In this document: piece by piece, positions 42,801 to 45,800 of the stretch
Layout: every line of letters begins with the position of its first letter
Numbering within the stretch: the first letter of the stretch is position 1
Assembly: GCA_903813345.2 (NCBI GenBank)
Contig: CAIIXF020000001.1
Span: forward strand, 49,679,885-49,743,884
Direction of reading: 5' to 3'
Origin: Owenia fusiformis
Lineage: Eukaryota > Annelida > Polychaeta > Sabellida > Oweniidae
Length of the DNA: 64,000 nt
Notes under the pieces: model-generated
What the model was told of the DNA's origin: nothing
Seen by the model: only the letters and a program-made list of their open reading frames with translations
The model's database searches: none
Translations under genes and position numbers: made by a program

Positions 42801-45800
42801 TGCAGTGATTAAAGTATGTGCTTTTAATTTCATTTGTGAACAAATTTGTACATTTCTTAAGCTGAACCAAAATATTAAATACTCAGCAACATTGCCTTAT
42901 ATGAAGTATATTAGTATAGGTACCCACCACATTTAAATCAAAGATATTTTTGTTATTATTGTAGAGATCCAGGGTGATGCAGATGAGGATGATCTTGAAT
43001 CAGATGATGTAAGTATTCAAGAAAGCTCTCTTGTTAACAACATCTTTATTCTTGGTATATATTGAGTACATATTTTGTATTGATAATTTTTGAAAAACAT
43101 TTTTATTGCGTTTTGTCTCATTAAATGTTTTTCCTCATAACTTGATTGTCAGCTTGTGTTGCAATATGCGGATACATGATATCGTTATCCCATGATTACA
43201 TAATGATGTTATCTCATGATTACATACTCATCTTGGGTCAGGTAAAATTCCGTGTTATCTCATGAACACAGAATCAGATAAGATTCATTCATTGTTTATC
43301 TGTATATGCAGTCAAGTCTCACGTTCGACACTAACTGACACGTGTCATTTCAGAGTCAGTCGAGCCAGATAATGATCAAACCTAAAGTGAAGACTCCATC
43401 GGAGGAGGACTTTGAGAAAATAAAACTTGTCAGTAATGGAGCATATGGGTAAGTCTGATCGTCTTAACAAGAGTCCTACAGATCGGGAAGTAACAGGGAA
43501 ATGTGAAATGATATAAGATGTCGGAGAAATATTTGGTTTCGATTCAGAGCTAAAAAGTAAACAATTGATAAAAACGAGGCTGTTTAAGGTCTTTAAGTTA
43601 ATATTATTGCCTGGAAATGTCATGTTATTTCATGAGGTTGTAAGAACCCTGTTCAATGATCCAATAATCCAGTCTACAGGCTTACTGTCATAGAAGTCCA
43701 ATAGACATGATGATACATTGTTTAGATTAATCTGAACAAATCCATATCTTTAAGGAACATAGCTGGTTCCACCCATTGGAATGTTTGGAATTATTTAAAT
43801 ATGAATAGAAACAATTGTCTTTTCATTTCTATCATATTTAAATGTTCAAACTTCTCTGTCATATCACAATATATCTGATAATGCTAGTTTTCTATTATAA
43901 CTTGTTCTTCTAAAATGAAATATAACCTCTTAATATAAGAATCTAAATGCTATTCCAGTGCTGTTTACCTAGTGAGGCACACAGAAATATAACCTCTTAA
44001 TATAAGAATCTAAATGCTATTCCAGTGCCGTTTACCTAGTGAGGCACAAAGAAATATAACCTCTTAATATAAGAATCTAAATGCTATTCCAGTGCCGTTT
44101 ACCTAGTGAGGCACAAAGAAATATAACCTCTTAATATAAGAATATAAATGCTATTCCAGTGCCATTTACCTAGTGAGGCACAAAGAAATATAACCTCTTA
44201 ATATAAGAATCTAAATGCTATTCCAGTGCCGTTTACCTAGTGAGGCACAAAGAAATATAACCTCTTAATATAAGAATCTAAATGCTATTCCAGTGCCGTT
44301 TACCTAGTGAGGCACAAAGAAATATAACCTCTTAATATAAGAATATAAATGCTATTCCAGTGCCGTTTACCTAGTAAGGCACAAAGAAATATAACCTCTT
44401 AATATAAGAATCTAAATGCTATTCCAGTGCTGTTTACCTTGTGAGGCACAAAGAAATATAACCTCTTAATATAAGAATCTAAATGCTATTCCAGTGCTGT
44501 TTACCTAGTAAGGCACAGAGAAATATAACCTCTTAATATAAGAATCTAAATGCTATTCCAGTGCCGTTTACCTAGTGAGGCACAAAGAAATATAACCTCT
44601 TAATATAAGAATATAAATGCTATTCCAGTGCCGTTTACCTAGTGAGGCACAGAGAAATATAACCTCATAATATAAGAATCTAAATGCTATTCCAGTGCCG
44701 TTTACCTAGTGAGGCACAGAGAAATATAACCTCTTAATATAAGAATCTAAATGCTATTCCAGTGCCGTTTACCTAGTGAGGCACAAAGAAATATAACCTC
44801 TTAATATAAGAATCTAAATGCTATTCCAGTGCCGTTTACCTAGTGAGGCACAAAGAAATATAACCTTTGAATATAAGAATCTAAATGCTATTCCAGTGCC
44901 GTTTACCTAGTGAGGCACAAAGAAATATAACCTTTGAATATAAGAATCTAAATGCTATTCCAGTGCCGTTTACCTAGTACGGCACAAAGAAATATAACCT
45001 CTTAATATAAGAATATAAATGCTATTCCAGTGCCGTTTACCTAGTAAGGCACAAAGAAATATAACCTTTGAATATAAGAATCTAAATGCTATTCCAGTGC
45101 CATTTACCTAGTGAGGCACAAAGAAATATAACCTTTGAATATAAGAATCTAAATGCTATTCCAGTGCCGTTTACCTAGTGAGGCACAAAGAAATATAACC
45201 TCTTAATATAAGAATATAAATGCTATTCCAGTGCCGTTTACCTAGTGAGGCACAAAGAAATATAACCTCTTAATATAAGAATCTAAATGCTATTCCAGTG
45301 CCGTTAACCTAGTGAGGCACAAAGAAATATAACCTCTTAATATAAGAATATAAATGCTATTCCAGTGCCGTTTACCTAGTAAGGCACAAAGAAATATAAC
45401 CTCTTAATATAAGAATCTAAATGCTATTCCAGTGCCGTTTACCTAGTGAGGCACAAAGAAACAAGACAGAGATATGCTATGAAGAGAATGTTGAAACACA
45501 ATCTCATTCTACGCAACCAAGTGGATCAAGTATTCGCAGAAAGAGACATTCTCACCTTCACAGACAACCCTTTTGTTGTTAGCCTTTATTGCAGTTTCGA
45601 AACTAAGGTAAATTATATTGGGATATAATGATTTTGGGACAGGCTTTTCTCCAAACACATTTTAAGGAAAACAATGTATGATACATAGTACTTGATCCTA
45701 CCAATCCTGTACATAAGTACACATAGATGATGTAGTATTTTGATATACATGTATACATATAAGAGTTATGTACTATGAGGTTCTGGATACAGAGTTTATT

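Follow-up and report, generated by a model that had tools for sequence, protein, structure and literature searches.

The MAST locus and its exon 12 array

We analysed a window of 64,000 nucleotides of the annelid Owenia fusiformis (contig CAIIXF020000001.1, positions 49,679,885 to 49,743,884, forward strand; about 34% GC), which contains a MAST-type kinase gene. One intron of this gene ends in a 67-bp tandem array in which the 3' splice site and the start of the following exon are present 23 times. The DUF1908, protein kinase (Pkinase) and PDZ domains of the gene were matched with Pfam profiles, and its exons were picked out by hand as open frames rather than taken from an assembled full gene model. 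A profile search for DUF1908 through the 498-Mb genome, in which matches can be missed, returned the MAST locus as its sole match and no further locus that would indicate a second MAST gene; the genome likely has a single MAST gene. Given the exons in open frames, the domains that match Pfam and the single DUF1908 locus, the gene seems to work despite the array. The names exon 11 and exon 12 are used only as labels, kept from an earlier, sequence-only reading of the window. The features that matter here are the following.

43354..43448, + strand: MAST exon 11, with both of its splice sites read and scored; its last two bases are the start of a split glycine codon
43449..45432, + strand: intron 11, containing the decoys; GTAAGT donor at 43449, AG at 45431-45432
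43917..45461, + strand: 67-bp tandem array (Tandem Repeats Finder and unit table); 23.1 copies, 96% match, 0% indels
43959..43987, + strand: first (5'-most) decoy exon start; two differences from the real copy
44026..45394, + strand: remaining 21 decoy exon starts, 29 nt each, one every 67 bp (44026, 44093, ... 45366)
45433..45607, + strand: real exon 12, 175 nt, matched by Pkinase in an open frame; the final array unit supplies the first 29 nt; donor at 45608
45878..45969, + strand: exon after exon 12; acceptor and donor read

Each of the 23 units is in register with the exon and consists of the last 38 nt of the intron followed by the first 29 nt of exon 12. The real junction, with the exon running from 45433, is the last of the 23 acceptors. 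Upstream of it lie 22 decoys, whose exon starts open at 43959 + 67k (k = 0-21), and only the final unit continues into an open exon. The unit length, the 29 nt of exon start, the strict phasing and the number of decoys had all been described in the sequence-only reading and were borne out by Tandem Repeats Finder and the unit table. A 22-nt acceptor core occurred 23 times in the window at up to 3 mismatches, against a mean of 0.00 in 100 shuffles. When one unit together with exon 12 was used as a DNA query against the genome, in a search that skips very common words, 23 matches were obtained, all of them here; that search found no copy of the array and no second haplotype elsewhere in the assembly.

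The units differ from each other by 3.6% on average. Variation is confined to 11 of the 67 columns, and all four combinations are seen in 10 of the 55 pairs of variable columns, which argues for exchange or conversion within the array. Neighbouring units showed no significant extra similarity when compared with permuted ones (P = 0.12). The tetranucleotide GAAA is present at both ends of the array.

Because no base differs from -15 to +3 among the 23 acceptors, and because seven decoys are identical to the real copy over the full 67 nt, nearby sequence cannot separate the real acceptor from the decoys; context can. Eight of the 23 acceptors, the real one included, are thus the same over 67 nt, so that nature provides here a clean test of exon definition. 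The acceptor core bears no sign of special conservation. Variable columns are no less frequent in the exonic part than in the intronic part (7/29 versus 4/38, P = 0.19), and the length of the longest invariant run, considered as a sign of selection, is at the level expected by chance (P = 0.27). RNA structure was also considered as a cue and rejected: the stretch that starts at the last decoy and reaches into the body of exon 12 has no better fold than shuffled sequences (z = -0.26).

Two further arrays of about 24-25 bp were noticed at 41783-42240, close to the end of an earlier intron of the MAST gene. The second of them ends some ten bases short of the acceptor of the exon at 42250.

Coding consequences of decoy use

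When exon 11 is joined to a decoy, an in-frame stop follows after 11 residues in all 22 cases. Ten of these residues equal or nearly equal those of the real protein, and an eleventh is added before the stop. The sequence-only reading had assigned one and the same peptide and stop to every decoy: all 22 do reach the stop, but the exact peptide, which comes after the split-codon glycine, is found in only 15 of them and the other seven differ from it by one residue. It placed the end of the product before the catalytic lysine, numbered 489 there; the lysine of the AMK motif is encoded in the part of exon 12 beyond the duplicated segment. The in-frame stops need no selection to be explained, as A+T-rich intron sequence soon yields stops.

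The donor-like motifs that had been noted in several units were also found, and in more of them. A donor-like site lies 13 nt inside each decoy and reads CTA/GTGAGG in 16 of the 22 and CTA/GTAAGG in four (the slash marks the putative exon end); the remaining two have CTT/GTGAGG and CTA/GTACGG. The sequence CTA/GTGAGG is present in the real exon 12 as well, where it is coding sequence. Scored with approximate frequencies, the internal site stands at about the 97th percentile of all GT dinucleotides in the window and the real exon 12 donor at 97.8. Measured to that donor, the exon is 175 nt long from the real acceptor versus 242 to 1649 nt from the decoys.

Junction arrays elsewhere in the genome

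Other exons of the genome were surveyed in a control sample drawn from profile matches. It comprised 31 larger kinase loci, judged by a somewhat different rule, and 138 small windows (60 kinase, 58 kinesin and 20 myosin), hand-picked from the match lists with short open frames favoured. A tandem duplication crossing an exon junction was present in 9 of the 138 small windows (6.5%, 95% interval 3.0 to 12.0%) and in none of the 31 larger loci. The first 99 small windows gave four hits and the first 19 kinesin windows gave none; a second batch of 39 kinesin windows, chosen after the first hits and a KIF4-like array were known, gave five. Where a window held several matches, one was used. Rows L011 and L012 (MAST), rows L016, L023 and L031 (the same places as L010, L014 and L009) and row L124 (the KIF4-like array, outside the sample) were excluded, and duplications lying outside the exon edges in L104, L106, L123 and L126 were not counted. 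The nine cases were each read individually, and in all of them it is on its intron side that the real junction has its copies. Gene labels beyond the family level reflect a reading of the protein, not a search. The cases, with the KIF4-like array added, are listed here.

L050, PAK-like kinase, 146-827 (G000:C5:69000-71000): three 86-bp decoy acceptors upstream and one 71-bp decoy donor downstream
L084, MKK-like: donor side
L096, CDKL-like: unit of about 51 bp, four decoy acceptors
L138, myosin: one old acceptor copy
L149 and L184, kinesin exon, G000:C6:40709886-40711100, minus strand: five or more decoy acceptors, spaced about 154 bp, within 901 bases; the array extends past the piece, and the decoy acceptor of L149, outside the initial window, was found in the adjoining stretch
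L162, kinesin: donor side, 67 bp
L169, L175 and L177, kinesins: acceptor side
L124, KIF4-like kinesin exon, G000:C2:23266100-23269900, minus strand, from the kinesin match list: 18 acceptors at 159-bp spacing (one step of 158)

Exon edges fell within tandem duplications in 10 of 276 cases (3.6%), compared with 2238 of 52705 flanking positions (4.2%) and 274 of 23235 exon-interior positions (1.2%). With edges taken as independent, they did not differ from the flanks (P = 0.76) and exceeded the exon interiors (P = 0.002). No bias between acceptors and donors was detected among the seven acceptor and three donor cases (P = 0.34). On a plain reading, introns and their junctions with exons are equally subject to tandem duplication, and copies at junctions are tolerated nearly as well as those within introns. 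The similar share of exon edges and flanks inside duplications gives no hint of strong selection against decoys.

The KIF4-like array contains 17 decoys, each closed by the same in-frame stop, and 8 of the 10 distinct changes in its decoy exon parts are silent, as if the array had been refilled from the real exon; we regard this as a lead. Over all decoy exon parts counted, 24 of 44 distinct changes were silent. This is above the 26% expected under neutrality; the margin over about 41%, our own rough estimate for the case in which the constrained changes of the real exon are counted too, is slight (P = 0.048). We do not claim a general bias towards silent changes. No changes were counted from L138 and L177, L096 contributed nothing, L149 and the donor-side arrays were left out, and L169 was re-read by hand (2 silent, 0 not; one split-codon change omitted).

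These data allow a tentative proposal, to which we give slightly less than even odds: splice junctions may be copied into decoy arrays across the genome. Such arrays, with as many as 22 decoys, would stand in roughly one of the 15 exon windows sampled on average, about as commonly as tandem duplications do in the flanks; identical decoy acceptors and donors would be nearly invisible to selection, and some arrays, the KIF4-like one among them, would seemingly take in fresh copies of the real exon and thereby keep a record of its silent changes. If this is true, the genome is a large-scale experiment of nature on the choice that the spliceosome makes among many identical sites, and arrays at 9 of 138 windows would let ordinary RNA-seq put the question at many genes at once. 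The apparent abundance of such arrays in the genome is a more interesting result than the MAST array.

Some other repeats were noticed. At G000:C9:37986009-37994334 on the minus strand, a myosin-head exon (model positions about 18-84) is present in twelve copies at irregular spacing; they look like alternative exons rather than a minisatellite. Within the window itself, the blocks 51539-53117 and 58902-60479 are built alike: a CGTC-rich stretch comes first, then a 162-bp array (6.4 copies) whose printed consensus starts identically in both. They are probably two copies of one mobile element. Arrays of period 162 are also present in L029, L034 and L037.

Origin and likely effect of the MAST array

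We consider it most probable (about 80%) that the MAST array is a minisatellite of the type called a 'mirage' in amphioxus, formed by chance over an intron-exon boundary and nearly neutral, with the exon-proximal acceptor used in most cases. The GAAA match may have been used in the first duplication, as its likely seed, and exchange or conversion among units would have mixed their variants since. After exon 11 the spliceosome would mostly pick the acceptor adjoining the body of exon 12, in keeping with exon definition; this last acceptor is expected to be preferred because only that copy gives the normal 175-nt exon joined to the real downstream donor. The other 22 acceptors would then leave with the intron. 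Rare use of a decoy would lead to the stop after 11 residues and probably to decay of the RNA, so that the array would have little effect on the gene, although some splicing may leak into the decoys. The length of the array probably varies between individuals. A precedent for such variation is the amphioxus globin gene BflGb6, whose two haplotypes have 6 and 3 units; this and the other published systems referred to below are cited from excerpts of the papers concerned.

Several points weigh against this interpretation. The published precedents on the acceptor side have fewer units (2 to 6), and the 31-bp variable number tandem repeat (VNTR) of human CBS, which reaches 16-21, is on the donor side. 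Among the 12 acceptors of the gene that were given a simple score with approximate frequencies, that of exon 12 ranks last, and it may therefore be easier to misdirect. The amphioxus authors themselves state that cryptic sites in mirages could yield aberrant transcripts. Tandem repeats steer splicing in other systems: 38-bp repeats deep in a human TERT intron alter it in a copy-number-dependent manner through RNA pairing, at least nine being needed for one skipped isoform, and boundary repeats in human segmental duplications can change it too. Finally, the 95% interval for exon edges (1.8 to 6.6%), based on a small n of 10, permits an approximately twofold depletion at junctions, and these edges are those of profile matches rather than of annotated exons, several windows coming from one gene.

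A rival reading is that the decoys are a poison or tuning device, much as the sequence-only reading had suggested. Decoy acceptors, or decoy exons closed by CTA/GTGAGG, would then lead to an early stop and decay, and the length of the array would set MAST output. The early stop behind all 22 decoys, the weak exon 12 acceptor, an internal donor-like site that scores near the real one and the TERT and human boundary repeats all speak for such a device. Yet published mirages and the CBS 844ins68 duplication, as far as the excerpts go, give mostly normal mRNA, the genome shows no clear depletion of junction arrays, the conservation of the acceptor core does not exceed chance, and a decoy acceptor is just 13 nt from its own donor. 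A lowering or tuning of MAST output by the array, which the sequence-only reading had offered as inference, gets no support from these data, and published duplications of this type are reported to leave regular splicing undisturbed; we judge it unlikely. The same donor-like sites could be invoked for a role of the copies as working alternative exons or as a nascent intron, in line with the intron-gain model put forward for amphioxus globins and with the new introns reported from boundary repeats in humans. A 13-nt piece shifts the frame, however, and a longer piece from a decoy acceptor meets the in-frame stop of the unit, which makes this role very improbable. We hold it equally improbable that the array, wholly or in its copy number, is an assembly artefact. 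Assembly of so large an array is difficult, one amphioxus mirage appears misassembled in its genome draft, and the DNA search of the genome gave no second haplotype; but 11 variable columns in mixed combinations are not expected from a simple duplication error, and similar arrays with other units exist at nine sampled windows and in the KIF4-like gene.

Comparison with known systems

A chance-formed minisatellite at MAST exon 12 would have its closest relatives in amphioxus mirages, in which intron-exon boundaries are duplicated in the manner of a minisatellite, reportedly with no disturbance of regular splicing. The excerpts describe them in Adh3 (units of 10-72 bp, with somatic instability), in the globin genes BflGb6 (units of 150-160 bp) and BflGb9 (a copy of a 3' exon boundary) and in troponin C, and PGBD5 has similar, imperfect repeats. 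In these genes, as in MAST, boundary copies are arranged in tandem, many units carry AG or GT signals, and the authentic boundary is at the exon end of the array; the amphioxus arrays may be on the acceptor or the donor side. The MAST array likewise has units that span the boundary, contain splice signals and show turnover. It differs in size, with 23 units compared with 3 and 6 in BflGb6 and three in PGBD5. The amphioxus genes are also cephalochordate. Lancelets have more chromosomes, higher GC and GFP genes, while in the genome analysed here twelve large contigs (32 to 62 Mb) were seen, and profile searches for the GFP, mollusc haemocyanin and COX1 families returned no match, the controls being silent as well in the first two. 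In amphioxus, undisturbed splicing is suggested by the Adh3 data and by RT-PCR of the globins, and the Adh and troponin C mirages are said to give no aberrant mRNAs. In the literature searched, outside which most subscription journals lie, mirages were met with in two lancelet papers only, apart from one use of the word in a pine paper, and no genome-wide count of such arrays was found.

In humans, CBS 844ins68 is likewise a duplicated junction, but it is a polymorphism with two copies, not 23. Its distal site is reported to be strongly favoured, the other transcript being found only in traces and in the nucleus; the passage in question calls these sites donors, but the title of Romano 2002 cited there refers to a 3' splice site. 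For the CBS 31-bp VNTR (16-21 units), the notation c.1444_1467+7 places the repeat over an exon end; it is on the donor side, unlike the MAST array. Another donor-side counterpart is a minisatellite of IFI6 (6-16), which according to a paper title supplies many splice donors.

Human segmental duplications provide a further parallel. Minisatellites are described there at exon-intron boundaries, 27 intron modifications were retained after manual inspection, and novel introns and alternative splicing are reported; these repeats differ from the MAST array in that they sit in recent human paralogues. The MAST array bears on the idea, proposed as a model for the amphioxus globins, that boundary duplications feed intron gain. 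Judged by its sequence, it is best classed among the mirage-type boundary minisatellites, a kind already known, and is large in copy number.
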